Source of the DNA: Flavobacteriales bacterium
Lineage (GTDB): Bacteria; Bacteroidota; Bacteroidia; Flavobacteriales_E; Vicingaceae
DNA: 39,208 nucleotides
NCBI GenBank assembly: GCA_013359255.1
Contig: JABWCF010000021.1
Location: forward strand, 1-39,208
Direction of reading: 5' to 3'
Shown here: one piece after another, positions 25,960-34,439 of the stretch
How the letters are laid out: the number at the start of each line of letters is the position of its first letter
How positions within the stretch are numbered: position 1 is the first letter of the stretch
Notes under the pieces: generated by a model
What the model was told of the DNA's origin: nothing
What the model saw: only the letters and a program-made list of their open reading frames with translations
The model's database searches: none
Translations under genes and position numbers: made by a program

Positions 25960-26032
<73 letters not shown>

Positions 26033-26174
26033 ATTACATTTTTAAAAATTGAACCGCCACAATTTTACGACTTTTTAAATAGGATTTAATCTTTTTAGGC
26101 AGTTCCCATTTTTTAAAAAGATTTAAAAGAGAATAGAAGGGCAATTGAATTTAATATGAAAAAACAAGATTATA

Positions 26175-26190
26175 AGTGATAGAAGTCATA
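26175..26190 (+). promoter_or_regulatory. Candidate CRP/FNR-family operator upstream of the nos operon
   Basis: AGTGA-N6-TCATA matches the CRP-type consensus TGTGA-N6-TCACA at 8 of 10 positions. Its centre lies about 44 bp upstream of the start site implied by the promoter at 26194-26220, a normal place for an activator of this family. Chance occurrence is possible in this AT-rich gap. Confidence 0.35.
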
Positions 26191-26193
26191 CAA

Positions 26194-26220
26194 TTGCCAA
26201 ATTCATTAGGAGTAGATTTG
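26194..26220 (+). promoter_or_regulatory. Predicted promoter of the nos operon
   Basis: TTG (26194-26196), 16-bp spacer, TAGATTTG (26213-26220), an exact TAnnTTTG match; the leader to the ATG at 26243 is about 16 nt. The same -7 sequence is used by the membrane-protein gene at 34439. Confidence 0.5.
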
Positions 26221-26242
26221 TGAAATACAAAAATTAATAAAT

Positions 26243-26719
26243 ATGAAAAAAGCAATATTCATTTTAATAGTGCTAAGTTCTTCACTTTTTATTTTCTCAT
26301 GCGGAGGTGATGGAAATACTAATGAAAATAATCAAGAAAAAACCGTAGAGGGGGGAACAGAAGACTATGACCCTAAACGAGGAGAGGGGAAGTTCTCTGC
26401 CGAAAATTTAGTCGTAGGAGCATCGATAGACGTAGATATGGCAACTAAAGGAGAGGCCATTTCAGGTACAAAGTGTACATCATGCCATAAACTTTCTGAA
26501 GAGAAATTAGTAGGTCCCGGTTGGAAAGGGGTAACTAAAAAAAGAGAATTATATTGGATTATGAATTTTATAACCAATCCGGATCCGATGATTGAAAAAG
26601 ACCCAGAAATACAAGCCCAGTTGGAACTATGTTTAGTTAGAATGCCTAATCAAAATTTAAGTGATGAAGAGGCAAGAAGCATAGTAGAATTTATGAGAAA
26701 AAATGATGAAGCAAAATAA
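26243..26719 (+). CDS. Lipoprotein c-type cytochrome, likely electron donor to NosZ
   Basis: 158 residues. The signal peptide ends in a lipobox with Cys20 (LFIFSCGG), so the mature protein should be lipid-anchored. Heme is bound at Cys78-Thr-Ser-Cys81-His82, and Met134 (LVRMPNQNLS) is the probable sixth ligand: a single-heme class I cytochrome c. An acidic linker (~25-55) separates anchor and heme domain. It is the first gene of the operon, 19 bp before nosZ. Clade II nos clusters commonly encode c-type cytochromes beside nosZ. Electron delivery to the CuA site is inference from position. Transcription is probably from the promoter at 26194-26220. Confidence 0.93.
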   Translation: MKKAIFILIVLSSSLFIFSCGGDGNTNENNQEKTVEGGTEDYDPKRGEGKFSAENLVVGASIDVDMATKGEAISGTKCTSCHKLSEEKLVGPGWKGVTKKRELYWIMNFITNPDPMIEKDPEIQAQLELCLVRMPNQNLSDEEARSIVEFMRKNDEAK

Positions 26720-26738
26720 CCTTTAAAAACAATATATT

Positions 26739-28718
26739 ATGAAAATTATATCTAAAACAATATTAATATCAGCGTCCTTTGGCTTGTTAGCATTTGTTGC
26801 ATGTAAGCCAAAAAATACAAGCAATGCAGTATCAGGAGATGCCTCCTCGAAGGCGTATGTTGCCCCCGGAAAGTATGATGAATTTTATAATTTCGTATCG
26901 GGTGGTTTTAACGGTCAGTTAAGTGTTTATGGTTTACCTAGTGGGCGATTATTTCGTTCAATTCCCGTTTTCTCTGTTGATCCTGAAAAAGGATGGGGTT
27001 TTAGTGAAGAATCTAAACCAATGCTGAATACTTCGCATGGATTTATTCCTTGGGATGATGCTCATCATCCTGAATTGTCACAAACCAATGGCGAGGTAGA
27101 CGGGAGATGGGTATTTATAAATGCCAACAATACGCCTAGGGTTGCTCGCATTGATTTAAAGACCTTTAAAACTGCAGAAATAATCGAACTGCCAAATAGC
27201 GCAGGAAACCACTCTTCTCCTTTTATTACAGAGAATAGTGAATATGTTGTAGCAGGTACTCGATTTGCGGTTCCTGGCGATTATGAGAATGGTGATGTTC
27301 CAATTAATACCTATAAAGAAACATTCAAATCGCACATGAGTTTTATCTCTGTTGGAAAAGAAGGTGAAATGGATATAGCCTTTCAATTGAGGCTGCCAGG
27401 AATTGATTTTGATAAGGCACACGGAGGAAAAGGCCCTTCACATGGTTGGTTTTTCTTTTCTTGTTATAACGTAGAGCAAGCTCACACTCTTTTAGAAGTA
27501 AATGCTTCGCAAAAAGATAAAGACTTTATAATGGCAGTAAATTGGAAAAAAGCCGAGGAGTATATTAAAGCCGGAAAAGGAAAAAAAGAAACTGTTAGTT
27601 ATGCTCATAACACATGGAATGAAAGTACTCACACAGGTAATTCTGTATTAAAAAACGAGGTTTTAGTATTAGATGCAACCGAGTTTAAAGATATCTGCTA
27701 TTTTTTACCTTGTCCAAAGTCTCCTCACGGAACAGATGTAGACCCTTCAGGTGAATACATTTGTGGAAGTGGAAAATTGGCAGCGTTAATTCCGGTATTT
27801 AGTTTTTCAAAAATGGTAAAGGCAATTGAAAACAATGAATTCGAAACCGATTACGAAGGTATACATGTATTAAAATATGAGTCTGTGTTACACGGAGAAG
27901 TTAAGAAACCAGGATTAGGACCTTTACATACTGAGTTTGATGGAGAAGGAAATGCATATACTAGTTTCTTCGTATCATCAGAAATTGTAAAATGGAGTTT
28001 AAAAACACTAGAAGTTTTAGATCGGGTTCCTACCTATTACTCAGTTGGACACTTAATGATTCCTGGGGGAGATACTAAAAAGCCTTTTGGAAAATATTTA
28101 GTAGCATATAATAAAATAACTAAAGATAGATATTTACCAACAGGTCCTGAATTAACACAATCGGCACAGTTGTACGATATTAGTGGTGGTAAAATGCAAC
28201 TGATATTAGATTTTCCAACTATTGGCGAACCGCATTATGCACAAGCCGCACCAGCTGATTTGATTAGAAATAACGGTCAATTAAAATTCTATAAAATAGA
28301 AGACAATAAACACCCTTATGCAGCCAAAGGTGAACAAGAATCTAAAGTAGTTCGAGAAGGGAATAAAGTACACGTTTATATGACTTGTGTTCGTTCGCAT
28401 TTTGCTCCGGATAATATTGAAGGAATTAAAAAGGGTGATGAAGTATATTTTCATGTTACTAATCTTGAACAAGATTGGGATGTGCCACATGGATTTTCTG
28501 TAAAAGGGGCTCAAAATGCAGAGTTACTTATTATGCCTGGTGAAACCGCAACATTAAAATGGACTGCCGATAGAGTTGGTATTATCCCATTCTATTGCAC
28601 CGATTTTTGTAGTGCATTACATCAGGAAATGCAGGGATATGCAAGAGTTTCTCCAGCAAATAGTAATGTGCCTATTTCGTTTAGTTTAGGAAACAATACA
28701 CCGGGGTCATTAAAATAA
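26739..28718 (+). CDS. nosZ: Nitrous oxide reductase, clade II (Sec-dependent lipoprotein type)
   Basis: 659 residues. It reduces N2O to N2 in the periplasm. The N-terminus is a lipoprotein signal (LAFVACK, Cys22) with no twin-arginine motif, as in Sec-exported clade II enzymes. All seven CuZ histidines are present by motif: His109/110 (DDAHHPE), His158 (GNHSSPF), His330 (KSPHGTD), His397 (GPLHTEF), His438 (VGHLMIP) and His499 (EPHYAQA). The C-terminal cupredoxin domain has the CuA ligands His584 (VPHGFSV), Cys620, Cys624, His628 and Met631 (CTDFCSALHQEM). It is preceded by the cytochrome gene and followed by an intrinsic terminator before the accessory genes. The enzyme should be active if copper maturation works. 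Confidence 0.97.
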   Translation: MKIISKTILISASFGLLAFVACKPKNTSNAVSGDASSKAYVAPGKYDEFYNFVSGGFNGQLSVYGLPSGRLFRSIPVFSVDPEKGWGFSEESKPMLNTSHGFIPWDDAHHPELSQTNGEVDGRWVFINANNTPRVARIDLKTFKTAEIIELPNSAGNHSSPFITENSEYVVAGTRFAVPGDYENGDVPINTYKETFKSHMSFISVGKEGEMDIAFQLRLPGIDFDKAHGGKGPSHGWFFFSCYNVEQAHTLLEVNASQKDKDFIMAVNWKKAEEYIKAGKGKKETVSYAHNTWNESTHTGNSVLKNEVLVLDATEFKDICYFLPCPKSPHGTDVDPSGEYICGSGKLAALIPVFSFSKMVKAIENNEFETDYEGIHVLKYESVLHGEVKKPGLGPLHTEFDGEGNAYTSFFVSSEIVKWSLKTLEVLDRVPTYYSVGHLMIPGGDTKKPFGKYLVAYNKITKDRYLPTGPELTQSAQLYDISGGKMQLILDFPTIGEPHYAQAAPADLIRNNGQLKFYKIEDNKHPYAAKGEQESKVVREGNKVHVYMTCVRSHFAPDNIEGIKKGDEVYFHVTNLEQDWDVPHGFSVKGAQNAELLIMPGETATLKWTADRVGIIPFYCTDFCSALHQEMQGYARVSPANSNVPISFSLGNNTPGSLK

Positions 28719-28738
28719 TTAGAGTTGTCTTTTTAGAT

Positions 28739-28774
28739 TAAAAAGGGGCAACCGTAGAGGTTCGCCCCTTTTTT
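28739..28774 (+). terminator. Intrinsic terminator inside the nos operon, after nosZ
   Basis: A-tract, GGGGC-AACC, 5-nt loop, GGTT-c-GCCCC, then T6. It lies 20 bp after the nosZ stop and before the NosL-fusion start at 28792. Partial read-through would give more nosZ than accessory mRNA. Confidence 0.85.
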
Positions 28775-28791
28775 GTAAATGAAATGTGCTT

Positions 28792-29808
28792 ATGAAAACG
28801 AATAGAATATCTTTGTTATCTAAAGTATTACTTATTATTGCAAGTATTATTTTAGTAGTATCCATTTTTGTTCCAATATGGCGAATAGAATTGGATGCAC
28901 CACAATACCCGGAAGGTTTAGGGTTACTCATTTATGCAAATGAAATAGGAGGAGATGTGGATATTATAAATGGTCTAAATCACTATATAGGAATGCAAAC
29001 ACTTCATACTGAAAACTTCATTGAGTTTACCTTATTACCATACATTATTGCCGGGTATGCACTCCTGTTTTTAATAAATATATTAATTGCCAGAAAAAAA
29101 GTTTTATACTTTACCTTTGCAGCATTTGTGTTGTTTGGCATTATAGCAATGGTTGATTTTTGGCGATGGGAATATAATTACGGGCATAACCTTGATCCAA
29201 ATGCCGCAATTATTGTTCCGGGAATGGCATACCAACCCCCTTTAATTGGCTTTAAACAACTTCTAAACTTCGGAGCATATTCTGTTCCCGATTTAGGTGG
29301 ATGGCTTTTTATTATTTGTGGATTGTTATTGCTGTTTGCCGTTTTGTTTGAAACAGGGGTATTGAATCGTTTCAGAATGTCGAAACCAACAGCCGTTACT
29401 CTTGCTCTTTTTTTCTCAATATCATTCATTTCATGTTCAAATTTAGATTCTGAACCAATAAAATTAAACAAGGATAATTGCGAATATTGTAAAATGACCA
29501 TAACAGATGGAAGATTTGCCTCAGAACTTATAACTAAAAAAGGGCGAGTATATAAGTTTGATGATTTAAGATGTATGATTAATTATAAAAGCGACAACAG
29601 TAATGTAGAATGTAAGATACATTTTGTAAATGAATTTACATCTAACAATCTGTTAATCCCAGCAGAAAATGCATTCTTTGTTCATTCAGAGTCTATAAGA
29701 AGTCCTATGGGAGGAAATATTGCCGCATTTTCTGAAAATAAAAAAGCCCAAGAATTCGCTAAAGAGAGAAACACATCTCTTAAAACGTGGAAAGAAATCA
29801 ATCAATAA
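28792..29808 (+). CDS. Fusion of a NosB-like membrane domain with the copper chaperone NosL
   Basis: 338 residues from the ATG at 28792 (a GTG two codons earlier is possible). Residues ~1-190 hold four TM segments (~9-30, 79-100, 104-124, 169-189) with a periplasmic loop; clade II clusters usually carry such a membrane gene (nosB) after nosZ. Residues 196-215 (MSKPTAVTLALFFSISFISC) are a textbook lipoprotein signal with lipobox Cys215. After it comes NosL: CEYCKMTITDGRFA (Cys230, Cys233, Met235), YKFDDLRCM (Cys261, Met262) and SPMGGNIAAFS. Four preceding TMs put this signal N-in, so NosL faces the periplasm. NosL delivers Cu(I) to NosZ. Whether LspA cleaves the chain in two is unknown. NosD starts 9 bp downstream. 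Confidence 0.88.
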   Translation: MKTNRISLLSKVLLIIASIILVVSIFVPIWRIELDAPQYPEGLGLLIYANEIGGDVDIINGLNHYIGMQTLHTENFIEFTLLPYIIAGYALLFLINILIARKKVLYFTFAAFVLFGIIAMVDFWRWEYNYGHNLDPNAAIIVPGMAYQPPLIGFKQLLNFGAYSVPDLGGWLFIICGLLLLFAVLFETGVLNRFRMSKPTAVTLALFFSISFISCSNLDSEPIKLNKDNCEYCKMTITDGRFASELITKKGRVYKFDDLRCMINYKSDNSNVECKIHFVNEFTSNNLLIPAENAFFVHSESIRSPMGGNIAAFSENKKAQEFAKERNTSLKTWKEINQ

Positions 29809-29817
29809 TTTCTTTTA

Positions 29818-31050
29818 ATGAGGGTATTATTATTTTCTATATTACTCTTTTCCTCTTTCATAATAGATGCAAAAACCTTTCAAGTTGGAAATAATAATTT
29901 TTATAAGAAAATTAAATCAGCCTTAAATGATGCAGTAAATGGAGATACCATTATTGTTGAAAAAGGTTTTTATAAGGAAGGAAATATTGTTATTGATAAA
30001 TCCGTTTCCTTATTAGGAAAAGATTTTCCGGTTTTAGACGGAGAAAAAAAATTTGAAGTACTTACCGTAAAAGCAAATTATGTTACCATTAAGGGTTTTA
30101 TTATACAACATTCAAGTTACGCTGTATTAGATGACCCTGGGGGTATAAAAATTTATAACTCCCGTTATGTTACCATTCAAAACAATCAGTTATTCGATAA
30201 TTTTTTTGGAATATATATTCAGGAAAGTAAACATTGCATAGTAAAAGATAATAAAATAAGTGCTTTAATAAAAACAGAACAAGAAATTGGAAATGGGGTG
30301 CATTGTTGGAAAAGCGATAGTTTGCAAGTTATAGGAAATAATATTTCAGGTAATAGAGACGGGATTTATTTTGAGTTTGTAACGAATTCAATCATTTGGA
30401 GAAATATTTCTTGTAATAACCTTCGGTACGGTTTGCACTTTATGTTTTCTCATAATGATTCCTACATTACTAATATTTTTAAAAACAATGGTGCCGGTGT
30501 TGCTGTTATGTTTACCAAAAATGTAACCATGATGAATAATACATTTGAAAACAACTGGGGCGATTCCTCTTATGGTCTTTTATTAAAAGATATTTCTGAT
30601 AGTTATATAGCTACAAATAAATTTTATAATAATACATCAGGAATTTATATTGAGGGTTCAAATAGGCTACATATTGAAAAAAATATTTTTGAAGCGAATG
30701 GATGGGGCATGAAAATACAAGCTAGTTGTATGGATAATTATATTGAAAAAAATAATTTTATTGGAAATACATTTGATGTTAGCACGAATGGAACGCTGGT
30801 TTTAAATACATTTAATGAAAATTATTGGGATAAATATGAAGGGTACGATTTGAATAAGGATAATATTGGTGATGTTCCTTATCATCCCCTTAGTTTATTT
30901 TCGGTAATTGTCGAAAATTGCCCACCTGCCATGTTAATTTATAGAAGTTTTATTGTAACACTATTAGATAAATCAGAAAAAATATTACCAAGTTTAACAC
31001 CTAAAAATTTTATTGATAATAAACCGTTAATGAGAGCAATAAAGTTATGA
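29818..31050 (+). CDS. nosD: NosD, periplasmic copper-site maturation protein
   Basis: 410 residues. Residues 1-18 are a signal peptide (MRVLLFSILLFSSFIIDA). The body is a right-handed parallel beta-helix of the NosD/CASH type, with regular turns such as IYNSRYVTIQNNQLFDNFFG, IYIQESKHCIVKDNKI, YIEGSNRLHIEKNIFEANG and, near the end, FNENYWDKYEGYDLNKD, a signature of NosD C-terminal turns. With NosF and NosY it supports assembly of the CuZ centre of NosZ. It begins 9 bp after the NosL fusion and overlaps nosF by 4 bp (ATGA), indicating translational coupling. Confidence 0.95.
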   Translation: MRVLLFSILLFSSFIIDAKTFQVGNNNFYKKIKSALNDAVNGDTIIVEKGFYKEGNIVIDKSVSLLGKDFPVLDGEKKFEVLTVKANYVTIKGFIIQHSSYAVLDDPGGIKIYNSRYVTIQNNQLFDNFFGIYIQESKHCIVKDNKISALIKTEQEIGNGVHCWKSDSLQVIGNNISGNRDGIYFEFVTNSIIWRNISCNNLRYGLHFMFSHNDSYITNIFKNNGAGVAVMFTKNVTMMNNTFENNWGDSSYGLLLKDISDSYIATNKFYNNTSGIYIEGSNRLHIEKNIFEANGWGMKIQASCMDNYIEKNNFIGNTFDVSTNGTLVLNTFNENYWDKYEGYDLNKDNIGDVPYHPLSLFSVIVENCPPAMLIYRSFIVTLLDKSEKILPSLTPKNFIDNKPLMRAIKL

Positions 31051-31754
31051 TTGAGTTAAAAAATGTTTCTAAAAAATTTGGTCGTTTAAGTGTTTTAAAT
31101 AACATCAATCTTTTATTTGAAGAAGGACAATGTGTAGCATTAATAGGACCTAACGGTTGTGGCAAAACAACATTAATTAAATCAATATTAGGTATGGTGT
31201 TGCAAGATGGTGGCGATATTATATTTAAAGGAAAGAATATTAAAAATGATTATGAATACCGAAAACATATAGGGTATATGCCTCAAATTGGCAGATACCC
31301 CGAAAATATGAGTATTGGTCAAGTAATAGAAATGATTAAAAATATACGTCAATCCAATAACAATATTGATGAAGAACTTCTTAATCAATTCCAGTTGACT
31401 CAAATGTTTTATAAACAAATGCGTACACTTAGCGGAGGAACTACTCAAAAAGTAAGCGCTACCCTTGCCTTTTTATTTAATCCTGATGTGCTTATTTTAG
31501 ATGAACCTACGGCTGGTTTAGATCCACTATCTTCAGAAATTTTGAAGGAGAAAATTCTAAAAGAAAAACAAAACGGGAAGTTAATACTCATCACTTCACA
31601 TTTATTAAGTGAGTTAGACGAGTTGGTTTCTCACCTTATTTTTATGCAAGAAGGGAAAATAAATTTTTATCAGAGTATTGAAACACTTAAAAGAGAAACA
31701 GGCGAAGATAAAATCTCAAAAGTTATTTCTAAAATTTTAAAACAACAGAATTAA
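31047..31754 (+). CDS. nosF: NosF, ABC transporter ATPase
   Basis: 235 residues, a single ABC ATPase domain. Walker A is GPNGCGKTT (34-42), the signature motif LSGGTTQKVS (128-137), Walker B DVLILDE (147-153), then the D-loop TAGLDP and the switch His in ITSHLLSE. It pairs with NosY in the inner membrane and with periplasmic NosD. The transported compound, thought to be a sulfur species for CuZ, is not settled. The start overlaps nosD by 4 bp, and the stop shares a base with the nosY start (TAATG). Confidence 0.95.
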   Translation: MIELKNVSKKFGRLSVLNNINLLFEEGQCVALIGPNGCGKTTLIKSILGMVLQDGGDIIFKGKNIKNDYEYRKHIGYMPQIGRYPENMSIGQVIEMIKNIRQSNNNIDEELLNQFQLTQMFYKQMRTLSGGTTQKVSATLAFLFNPDVLILDEPTAGLDPLSSEILKEKILKEKQNGKLILITSHLLSELDELVSHLIFMQEGKINFYQSIETLKRETGEDKISKVISKILKQQN

Positions 31755-32521
31755 TGAACAGAATTATTAAATTTATAATTCTTGATATTTTTAAAAATAA
31801 AATTGTATTAGCCTATACCATTCTATTGGCTGCATTTTCATGGAGTGCTTTTAGTTTAGAAGATAGCTCTACCAAAGGGGTACTTACCATTCTAAATATT
31901 ATTTTATTAATTGTGCCTTTAGTTTCTATTTTATTTGCTACAATATATATTTATAATAGCTCGGAATTTATAGAACTATTATTAAGTCAACCCATACATC
32001 GCAATAAAATATGGCTGAGTTTGTTCATTGGATTATCGATTAGTTTACTAAGTGCTTTTTTAATGGCAGCAGGAATTCCTTTAATATTATTTGCAGAATC
32101 TTTAGTAGGTTTTATGATGATTGTGGTAGGATGCTTAATTTCAGCTGTATTTATTGCTATCGCATTCCTTAGCTCTATTCTTAGTCGTGATAAAGCCAAG
32201 GGCATAGGTATTTCCATTCTATTATGGTTATATTTTGCTTTATTATTTGATGGATTAGTTTTGTTCCTTTTATTTCAATTTTCCGATTATCCAATAGAAA
32301 AAATGATGGTAGGTATTACAGCCAGTAGCCCTATTGATTTAGCAAGGATTCTTATCTTGTTGCATTTAAATGTATCTGCAATGATGGGATACTCCGGAGC
32401 AATTTTTAAAGATTTTTTTGGTTCAAATCTTGGGCTTTTTGTTGCCTTTATGTTATTAATATGTTGGATTCTATTTCCTTTTCTCCTATCACTTAAAATT
32501 TTCAATAAAAAAGACTTGTAA
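31754..32521 (+). CDS. nosY: NosY, ABC transporter permease
   Basis: 255 residues with about six TM segments (for example LTILNIILLIVPLVSILFAT, ALLFDGLVLFLLFQF and LFVAFMLLICWILFPFLLSL). The segment SSEFIELLLSQPIHRNKIWL is the cytoplasmic coupling region typical of ABC-2/NosY permeases. It is the last gene of the nos operon, starts on the final base of nosF and is followed by a strong terminator. Confidence 0.93.
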   Translation: MNRIIKFIILDIFKNKIVLAYTILLAAFSWSAFSLEDSSTKGVLTILNIILLIVPLVSILFATIYIYNSSEFIELLLSQPIHRNKIWLSLFIGLSISLLSAFLMAAGIPLILFAESLVGFMMIVVGCLISAVFIAIAFLSSILSRDKAKGIGISILLWLYFALLFDGLVLFLLFQFSDYPIEKMMVGITASSPIDLARILILLHLNVSAMMGYSGAIFKDFFGSNLGLFVAFMLLICWILFPFLLSLKIFNKKDL

Positions 32522-32530
32522 ATGAATAAT

Positions 32531-32561
32531 AAAAAAAGCCGACAAGTTGTCGGCTTTTTTT
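32531..32561. terminator. Bidirectional terminator at the end of the nos operon
   Basis: A-tract, GCCGACAA, 1-nt loop, TTGTCGGC, T-tract, between nosY and the convergent FAS1 gene. Confidence 0.92.
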
Positions 32562-32578
32562 ATTATTTAACATATCAT

Positions 32579-33148
32579 TTATTTAGCTGGTGGTAAAAGC
32601 ACTTCGTTAATTACGTGAATTATGCCATTAGAGGTTGGAATAGAGGCAACAATTTCAGCCACATCGTTCACAAAAACTTTTCCGTCTTTTTTCGTAATCT
32701 TTATTTTTTGACCACTCACTTGCTCATATTCCTGCCCATCATTCATGTATTCAATTTTAAGAACGCCCACATATGTATGGTATTCTAAAATATGTTGTAA
32801 ATCGGCTTTCTTTTCAGGCTTAAGTAAGCCTTCTACGGTTCCTGCAGGCAGTTTATCGAATGCCGCATTTACAGGGGCAAAAACAGTAAAAGGACCTGCA
32901 TTACTTAGTGCGTCTACCAAACTAGCTGCTTTTACTGCTGCAACAAGTGTAGTGTGGTCTTTACTCCCTACTGCAACTTGTACAATATTTGGATTTGAAA
33001 CGTCATCTATAACTCCAGATTGCCCAACTGTTTCTGTTGGAGTATTTTCAACTAAATTGCTTTCGTTTTTATTCTCAGAACCGGATCCGCCACATGCCAT
33101 AGCGTGTAGTAAGATGATTGCTGCCGGGTATATTAGTTTGTTTTTCAT
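32579..33148 (-). CDS. FAS1 (fasciclin) domain lipoprotein
   Basis: 189 residues. The signal peptide ends in a lipobox (HAMACGGS, Cys19), followed by a Glu/Asn/Thr-rich linker and one FAS1 domain from ~70 to the end. Signatures are TLVAAVKAASLVDALSNAG, FTVFAPVNAAFDKLPAGTVE and NGIIHVINEVLLP. FAS1 proteins mediate adhesion, and some bind small ligands. The gene follows the 12-TM protein gene by 31 bp on the same strand, probably in one operon, and faces the nos operon across a shared terminator. A link to N2O respiration is suggested only by position. Confidence 0.93.
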   Translation of the reverse strand: MKNKLIYPAAIILLHAMACGGSGSENKNESNLVENTPTETVGQSGVIDDVSNPNIVQVAVGSKDHTTLVAAVKAASLVDALSNAGPFTVFAPVNAAFDKLPAGTVEGLLKPEKKADLQHILEYHTYVGVLKIEYMNDGQEYEQVSGQKIKITKKDGKVFVNDVAEIVASIPTSNGIIHVINEVLLPPAK

Positions 33149-33179
33149 AATAAATTGTTTTAGTCAAAGTACTTTTTAT

Positions 33180-34439
33180 CTACGAATTCAATAAATGATT
33201 ATCATCATGTTTAAATTTATTTATTAGTAGATTTTTTAATTGAGAAAAATACATTAAAAATATTCCGAACAGTATCAATAAAGAAATACCCAACAGTATT
33301 CCGTTTATGCCGGGTACTACAGTGTAGCTAAAAGAAGCGATGCCTTGAACTGCTAGCATTATTTCGTTTAAATAAACTCCAATAACAAAAAGTATAATAC
33401 CACTTATACTTAAATAATTAATTTTAATCTTTTGAGTAGCATAGATATATGTTATAAGAAATACAGATGTAATAGCCAGTAAAGCCAAATGCAGGTACGC
33501 AATAACAATAGGCCTAAACCCAAAGGCTAGTTTGCTAATAGCGGGAACTGTTGACCCCAGTTGTAAACTTAACTTAATCGCTAATGCTATTCCTAATATA
33601 ATAAATAGCAATACACTTAATTTATTGGAACGAATATTTTCTAAAAACTTATATTTTCTTAAACGTATTAACATAATAATACCCCCAAGGTATTGGGCAA
33701 TAGCCGCTAAAATAATAAGGACATATAGTACAAGGGGTATTTTAAGCCAAAGAACGGAAAGTCCGTATGCCGGTATGCAACTAATTGCAAAAAGCCAAAA
33801 CACAACCATCGATACTTTAAATTGCTTTACTACAGATTGTACATATCCTAAAAACAAACCTATGCATGCAAACAAATACCAACCATTGTACTGAAAATGT
33901 AGATACCAATACACAGAGGCTAAATAGTTATGTTGTGGAATTTTTTTAGTAATCATCATATATACCAAAGCAAAAGTGCCCAAAGAAGAAATAATATTAA
34001 AAAATAAAGCAGCCCCAAACCATCTTCGAATTTGTTTACTTTTTATCAGGTTTAAATTTTTAAAATAACAGTACGAAAATAAAAATGAGGTTAGAATAGA
34101 AATACTGGAAAAAATAATCGAAGATAAACTGTATCCACTAATGGCAAATGATATGAGCATTCCGTATGCAGCCATTAAGTTTGAAAAGAGAAGTAATTTA
34201 TAGAGTTTGAGTCTATGTTTTGTTAACTCTTTACTAATTAACATAACCATTAGTATCATAATGGTTTGGGAAATCCATCCGGTAAAAGCAAAGTGAGAGT
34301 GTGCATGTTGTAAATTCTTTTGGTCGAAATAATTAAACTCGAAACCAATTTTATATCGCATTAACACACCTAATAAAGCAACTACTAGTAGGTTTAATAA
34401 AGAAATACGAATAAACATTTTATCTATAGAACTATCCAT
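33180..34439 (-). CDS. 12-TM membrane protein with heme-copper-oxidase-subunit-I-like histidines
   Basis: 419 residues, about 12 TM segments covering nearly the whole chain. Histidines occur within the membrane at His45/47/49 (QHAHSHFAFTGW, TM2), His181 (YWYLHFQYNGW, TM6) and His317 (AYLHLALL, TM10). These positions are reminiscent of subunit I of heme-copper oxidases and of NnrS proteins. The consecutive His-His pair that helps bind CuB in oxidases (TM7) is absent, so it is probably not a terminal oxidase; a heme-binding or NO-related role is possible. A strong promoter resembling that of nos lies just upstream, and the FAS1 gene follows by 31 bp. Family assignment is tentative. Confidence 0.85.
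   Translation of the reverse strand: MDSSIDKMFIRISLLNLLVVALLGVLMRYKIGFEFNYFDQKNLQHAHSHFAFTGWISQTIMILMVMLISKELTKHRLKLYKLLLFSNLMAAYGMLISFAISGYSLSSIIFSSISILTSFLFSYCYFKNLNLIKSKQIRRWFGAALFFNIISSLGTFALVYMMITKKIPQHNYLASVYWYLHFQYNGWYLFACIGLFLGYVQSVVKQFKVSMVVFWLFAISCIPAYGLSVLWLKIPLVLYVLIILAAIAQYLGGIIMLIRLRKYKFLENIRSNKLSVLLFIILGIALAIKLSLQLGSTVPAISKLAFGFRPIVIAYLHLALLAITSVFLITYIYATQKIKINYLSISGIILFVIGVYLNEIMLAVQGIASFSYTVVPGINGILLGISLLILFGIFLMYFSQLKNLLINKFKHDDNHLLNS

Follow-up and report, generated by a model that had tools for sequence, protein, structure and literature searches.

An internal lipoprotein signal is conserved in the fused NosB-NosL proteins of Bacteroidota and may direct their processing

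Nitrous oxide is a greenhouse gas that is destroyed by nitrous oxide reductase, and NosB and NosL are helper proteins of this system. In a 39,208-nucleotide stretch of DNA from a Flavobacteriales bacterium of the Vicingaceae (assembly GCA_013359255.1, contig JABWCF010000021.1; hereafter the window), both proteins are specified by one gene, and the predicted lipoprotein signal of the NosL part lies within the deduced chain, behind the four helices of the NosB part. LspA is the enzyme that removes N-terminal lipoprotein signals. The question raised by this locus is whether the fused chain is an error of the assembly, a membrane tether for NosL or a precursor that is cut again at its internal signal.

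The locus represents a clade II nos cluster, the features of which are compiled in Table 1. The reading frame of NosB-L runs without interruption from its ATG to the stop codon at 29806-29808 and places the NosB domain ahead of NosL between nosZ and nosD; it is the only match to this gene in the source genome. The first-pass annotation had described one uninterrupted frame joining a four-helix domain to a full NosL, and this description is borne out by the open reading frame, the Pfam family PF05573, the helix scan and the AlphaFold2 models. The source genome also contains an LspA gene and two Lgt-like genes that exceed the Pfam cut-off (G000 C16:56491-57219 and C23:99562-100248). The hairpin between nosZ and nosB-L was absent from the output of a terminator scan that returned 2 sites in positions 26000-33300, compared with 3.8 expected. 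Comparable hairpins were detected 5' of nosB in 98 of 216 loci versus 7 of 216 shuffled sequences and 19 of 216 coding controls, with GGAGCAG- and CTGCTCC-like arms in 22 of the 98 hairpin-bearing upstream regions, and the hairpin may set the ratio of nosZ to the maturation genes. Directly 5' of nosZ, a cytochrome c whose start resembles that of a lipoprotein, the lipobox being assigned by eye, is encoded at 26243-26719 and is perhaps the electron donor of NosZ.

Table 1. Features of the nos cluster and of the fused nosB-nosL gene in the window
Feature	Position	Strand	Basis
nosZ, clade II (Sec-type) nitrous oxide reductase	26739..28718	+	TIGR04246, 919.6 bits vs cut-off 625
Strong terminator-like hairpin with a terminal T run, nosZ/nosB-L intergenic region	28740..28773	+	-20.5 kcal/mol, z -4.1
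Fused nosB-nosL gene (NosB-L), 338 aa	28792..29808	+	Single open frame
NosB half (residues 1-189) of four helices, with strands in the segments joining 1-2 and 3-4	28792..29358	+	AlphaFold2 models
Short loop and positively charged n-region, residues 190-198, ending R-F-R-M-S-K	29359..29385	+	Sequence
ATG of Met196, candidate for internal initiation, probably unused	29377..29379	+	Met not conserved in fused forms
Hydrophobic stretch and lipobox F-I-S, residues 199-214	29386..29433	+	Sequence
Cys215 codon, residue predicted to be lipidated and to begin mature NosL	29434..29436	+	Conservation
NosL half, residues 215-338, motif C230-x-x-C233-x-M235	29434..29805	+	PF05573, fold of solved NosL
nosD	29818..31050	+	TIGR04247, 423.5 bits vs cut-off 300
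ABC ATPase, nosF by position	31047..31754	+	PF00005 over cut-off
ABC-2 permease, nosY by position	31754..32521	+	PF12679 over cut-off

The distribution of the fusion was deduced from several sets of genomes. A first scan of genome contigs was limited to the 80 best among 160 relatives and favoured the fused state (79 fused, 1 split). Of 395 Bacteroidota genomes drawn evenly, 133 matched, the window's own included; a draw of 100 closer relatives yielded a match in 33, and 100 further regions were added to the locus set. The resulting 228 loci comprised 118 fused genes and 98 split pairs, both numbers including near-copies (L066, L075 and L084, for example, share the joint), as well as 12 nosB genes with no NosL detectable nearby by profile. 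The fusion that was to be looked for in other Bacteroidota nos clusters was thus found, and the suspicion that homologues are always split at this point proved false, since the even phylum sample, in which 130 of the 133 loci were read (without G004, G062 and G164), contained 30 fused genes besides 88 split pairs and 12 loci without a detected NosL. These 12 loci are L207-L211, L214 and L220-L225, of which L221 forms a very long branch on the NosB tree. Most split pairs are broken at the joint. The two genes overlap as ATGA in 20 of the 84 pairs that were measured, and the distance from the NosB stop to the NosL start, taken as the nearest upstream Met, has a median of 6.5 bases (range -56 to 347); in some pairs, such as L053, the halves even share a frame and are separated by nothing but stops. 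Additionally, nine plasmid records matched, of which those of Hymenobacter, Tunicatimonas and Gemmatirosa were examined and were all split, and a search for plasmid DNA near-identical to the window found none.

These data bear on the possibility that a sequencing or assembly error had joined two genes, to which we assign a negligible probability. Split homologues do exist, but no support for such an error was found: the contig search of relatives revealed the gene L002, which is 97% identical to that of the window and also fused, and the joint is read through in both L002 and L111, which are both 97% identical to the window gene and possibly come from one genome. A stop codon or frameshift hidden near 29377, as considered in the first-pass annotation, is consequently very unlikely, and the 97% identical fused gene in another assembly, along with more than half of the loci being fused, speaks against the error.

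The NosB half specifies a four-helix membrane protein beside nosZ in a clade II cluster, and it carries the motifs LNHYIGM (residues 62-68) and YGHN (residues 130-133), which are the same as the NosB motifs given in the available part of PMC9697520. A hydropathy scan placed the helices at residues 12-30, 77-95, 97-115 and 168-186, with a further segment at residues 200-218, where the signal lies, and the AlphaFold2 models contained long helices at residues 8-24, 78-99, 102-132 and 168-188 along with a helix at residues 198-211 of low confidence (blocks of 62-66 pLDDT). Residues 1-195 alone yielded no Pfam or NCBIfam match at E 0.1, and a search with 59 members revealed no NosB model among the Pfam and NCBIfam families listed (for Pfam, 25 of 38 families); the weak matches of these members concerned the unrelated models DUF4131 (17 of 59, best E 8e-4) and MFS_1 (one member, E 2.5e-4). 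The residues N63, H64, Y65, G67, M68 and E78 are identical in all 168 NosB rows, and the invariant H64, M68 and E78 are possible metal ligands. The predicted fold of the NosB half (28792-29370) resembles claudin-type four-helix proteins, including claudins, TARPs, GSG1L, DUOXA1 and a designed claudin, with Z values of at most 9.7, an rmsd of 5.0 and 149 aligned residues among the matches listed, which is below the trusted level for helical bundles. The best E value obtained with Foldseek was 0.004, and among the matches listed from the open-access literature none mentioned NosB and claudin together.

The NosL half was recognized by the Pfam model PF05573 over residues 226-337 (E 2.8e-14, 54 bits versus a cut-off of 24), and it matched NosL chains in the PDB by sequence with an E value of 2e-4, or 6e-8 with the family profile. 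Among the matches listed, the predicted model aligned with 7og7 over 122 residues (Z 16.5, rmsd 2.2). C230, C233 and M235 of the CxxCxM motif are invariant in the 59 aligned sequences used for folding, a set without L030. The fold and the metal motif are accordingly common to the window protein and the solved NosL lipoproteins (PDB 7og7, 7osf and 7znq), whereas the latter are separate proteins and the signal of the window protein is internal. Variation of the motif was observed elsewhere: nine split NosL-like neighbours of NosB (L146, L148, L169, L177, L185, L189, L190, L192 and L194) are devoid of CxxCxM and have a longer spacer behind a lipobox-like Cys, and the first Cys of the motif is lost, as in GAYCRM, in the fused proteins L102, L103, L106, L107, L108 and L110 and in the split protein L153.

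A bacterial lipoprotein signal consists of a charged n-region, an uncharged h-region and a lipobox with a small residue at position -1. At the joint of the window protein, helix 4 is followed by R-F-R-M-S-K, 16 uncharged residues that end in F-I-S, and Cys215. This order provides the charge, the uncharged h-region and the small -1 residue and fits a PS51257-like pattern. In the wording of the first-pass annotation, a textbook lipoprotein signal with Cys215 is present behind the four helices; the signal and Cys215 stand, and only the word textbook is slightly strong, since Phe instead of Leu occupies position -3, as it does in 31 of the 118 fused forms. The N-in orientation claimed for the signal is supported by the predicted topology: with the N-terminus inside, four helices would return the chain to the cytoplasm, so that the segment would be oriented as a normal signal.

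The occurrence of such a signal by chance was assessed with open reading frames of at least 150 aa in the flanks of the loci L001-L081 (806 after removal of overlaps), the thresholds being our own choice. Two of the 144 other proteins that had four helices or more carried a positively charged n-region followed by a hydrophobic stretch and a lipobox behind three or more helices, and none of the 144 carried such a signal without any later helix, although these loci are mutually related and the 144 proteins are not independent. By comparison, the internal signal was found in 76 NosB-L proteins, of 77 that were scored as four-helix proteins. The internal signal of NosB-L is more than chance.

The lipobox Cys is present in all 118 fused forms, a result that holds when the site is picked again without a preference for A, G or S at position -1, and in 79 of 79 fused forms of the first alignment (without L030 and L053). 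In the alignment of 59 sequences, C215 is nearly invariant (at least 90%), the shortfall being attributed to gap placement in the variable linker, as the anchor search finds the Cys in all sequences. Thinning at 80% identity provided a non-redundant set of 86 fused, 76 split and 6 other rows. A, G or S precedes the Cys in 116 of the 118 fused forms and in 84 of the 86 non-redundant ones, compared with 26% in the preceding hydrophobic stretch, the rows being treated in this test as independent though they are related. The two exceptions are L100 and L035; in the latter the Cys was placed by hand and the -1 residue is itself Cys. The linker columns are variable, with 2.5-3.9 bits at positions -28 to -2, 1.4 bits at position -1 and 0 at the Cys. 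The n-region preceding the hydrophobic stretch is positively charged in 97% of the 118 fused forms, and 112 of these fit the PS51257-like pattern, with 6 misses. Mere descent is an unlikely reason for the retention of Cys215, as the start Met and the remaining linker positions have changed and the Cys and the -1 residue have not. In the split NosL proteins the script located the lipobox site in 90 of 98, with A, G or S at position -1 in 89; in the remaining eight, a Cys behind a hydrophobic stretch was recognized by eye, two of them (L177 and L190) with a poor -1 residue.

A different pattern was obtained for the start codon. Of the 86 non-redundant fused forms, 31 have a Met ahead of the lipobox, where about 47% would be expected by chance, versus 65 of 72 split forms (72 of 76 rows, L146, L169, L185 and L190 being dropped since the script did not find the Cys). 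The frequency of this Met in the fused forms does not exceed chance, so it is the signal that selection has maintained and not the start codon, and the decay of the start codon after fusion, set against the persistence of the lipobox, is the strongest sign that the signal is used in the fused chain. The same numbers bear on a second ribosome start at Met196, which would provide a separate NosL besides the fusion. The ATG at 29377 exists as the first-pass annotation had stated and recurs in the near copy L002, but an internal start fails as a general mechanism, and we consider it very improbable in the window gene as well.

NosB-L is probably a polyprotein-like precursor that is lipidated by Lgt and cut by LspA into NosB and the lipoprotein NosL. 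The chain would be inserted with its N-terminus inside and helix 4 would end at the cytoplasm. Together, the R-F-R-M-S-K loop and the hydrophobic residues behind it would then serve for export of the NosL part in the manner of an ordinary lipoprotein signal. Lipidation of Cys215 by Lgt would be followed by cleavage before this residue by LspA, yielding a NosB in which the used signal remains as helix five and, as the second product, an ordinary lipid-anchored NosL, which could pass copper to NosDFY and NosZ. These products would equal those of the split genes, and the benefit of the fusion may be an equal supply of NosB and NosL. The lipid-anchored N-terminal Cys of the NosL half is predicted from a lipobox that is present and conserved, and its occurrence in every fused homologue likewise supports cutting by LspA, which had been put forward as a possibility at the outset.

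Cutting by LspA requires A, G or S at position -1 more than lipidation by Lgt does. The near-constancy of this residue argues against a chain that is lipidated at Cys215 but left uncut, with NosL covalently tied to NosB and anchored twice, and so does the frequent change between fused and split genes, which suggests that the covalent link is not needed. Retention of the site would also suit an uncut chain, and the hydrophobic stretch is slightly longer in the fused forms (median 16 versus 13 residues in split forms, p 2e-7), as a lasting fifth helix would want. This counts against cutting, as the 20-25 residues that are reached in some fused forms are enough to stay in the membrane as a helix. 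We regard the lipidated but uncut chain as unlikely. Less probable still is a five-helix protein that is neither lipidated nor cut, exposes NosL as a periplasmic domain and keeps the Cys for another purpose such as copper binding. A membrane-anchored chaperone beside NosB is plausible, and the low-confidence helix at residues 198-211 would fit it, but such a tether leaves unexplained the small -1 residue (84 of 86), the positive n-region and the correspondence of this Cys to the lipobox Cys of split NosL.

The relationship of fused and split forms was deduced from a quick, unrooted NosB tree of 168 rows, from which L227 was excluded as too short. The two states interdigitate, with at least 20 changes on the tree compared with a mean of 53.9 for shuffled labels; 9 changes are forced at a branch support of at least 95, 14 at 90 and 18 at 80. 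The window gene sits in a group of 65 rows, 60 of which are fused, and the close pair L096 (fused) and L175 (split) is joined with a support of 100. Since the tree is unrooted, fusion is not separable from fission among these changes. Such interdigitation is expected if the end products are equal, and it is moderately likely that NosB-L is a bacterial polyprotein that is cut by LspA inside a five-helix chain with release of NosL, and that Bacteroidota have switched many times between one gene and two because the end products are the same.

Many Bacteroidota make NosB and NosL as one chain that is probably cut again into the two usual proteins. If LspA cuts NosB-L, N-termini alone do not suffice to predict its substrates, and the NosL of fused clusters escapes any search restricted to N-terminal signals. 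Among the matches listed from the open-access literature, which leaves most subscription journals outside, there was no description of LspA cutting behind several helices (PMC9360617 being available in part), no precedent for an internal lipobox or an LspA-cut polyprotein, and no account of the internal signal of NosB-L; the LspA step may consequently be unprecedented. Bacteroidota are among the main nosZ carriers in one wastewater survey (PMC11409646, available in part), and NosB is essential in Wolinella, with a role described as unsettled in the accessible text of PMC9697520, where a possible copper role of NosB is derived from the fusion. The recurrence of the fusion closely links NosB with NosL and fits this copper role already in print. 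What deserves further attention is the conserved signal within the chain and the processing that it probably undergoes.

Among the proteins of nos clusters, NosC2 is a cytochrome. A NosB-NosC2 fusion, mentioned in the available part of PMC11409646, is likewise a NosB fusion in clade II nos clusters, with NosC2 instead of NosL as the partner. The NosB-NosL fusion itself is already published, so that the initial notion of a rare or unreported arrangement is not supported, and the window locus adds another case. In the available part of PMC9697520, NosB-L was inferred for Flavobacterium azooxidireducens, F. denitrificans and F. crocinum, and a NosB-NosL of Dyadobacter fermentans is cited there (van Spanning 2011, Hein 2017). 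These Flavobacterium proteins agree with the window protein in domain order, in the site between nosZ and nosD and in both NosB motifs, and split relatives occur at the same place in both cases. The main text of that paper does not contain the word lipoprotein, and its available part leaves the internal signal, its cutting and its conservation undiscussed. A further comparison is provided by a precursor from another system. FbcH of Bradyrhizobium, the cytochrome b/c1 precursor, resembles NosB-L in uniting a membrane protein and an exported protein in one chain with an internal signal; this signal is cut by signal peptidase I and not by LspA, and the exported part is not a lipoprotein, unlike that predicted for NosB-L.
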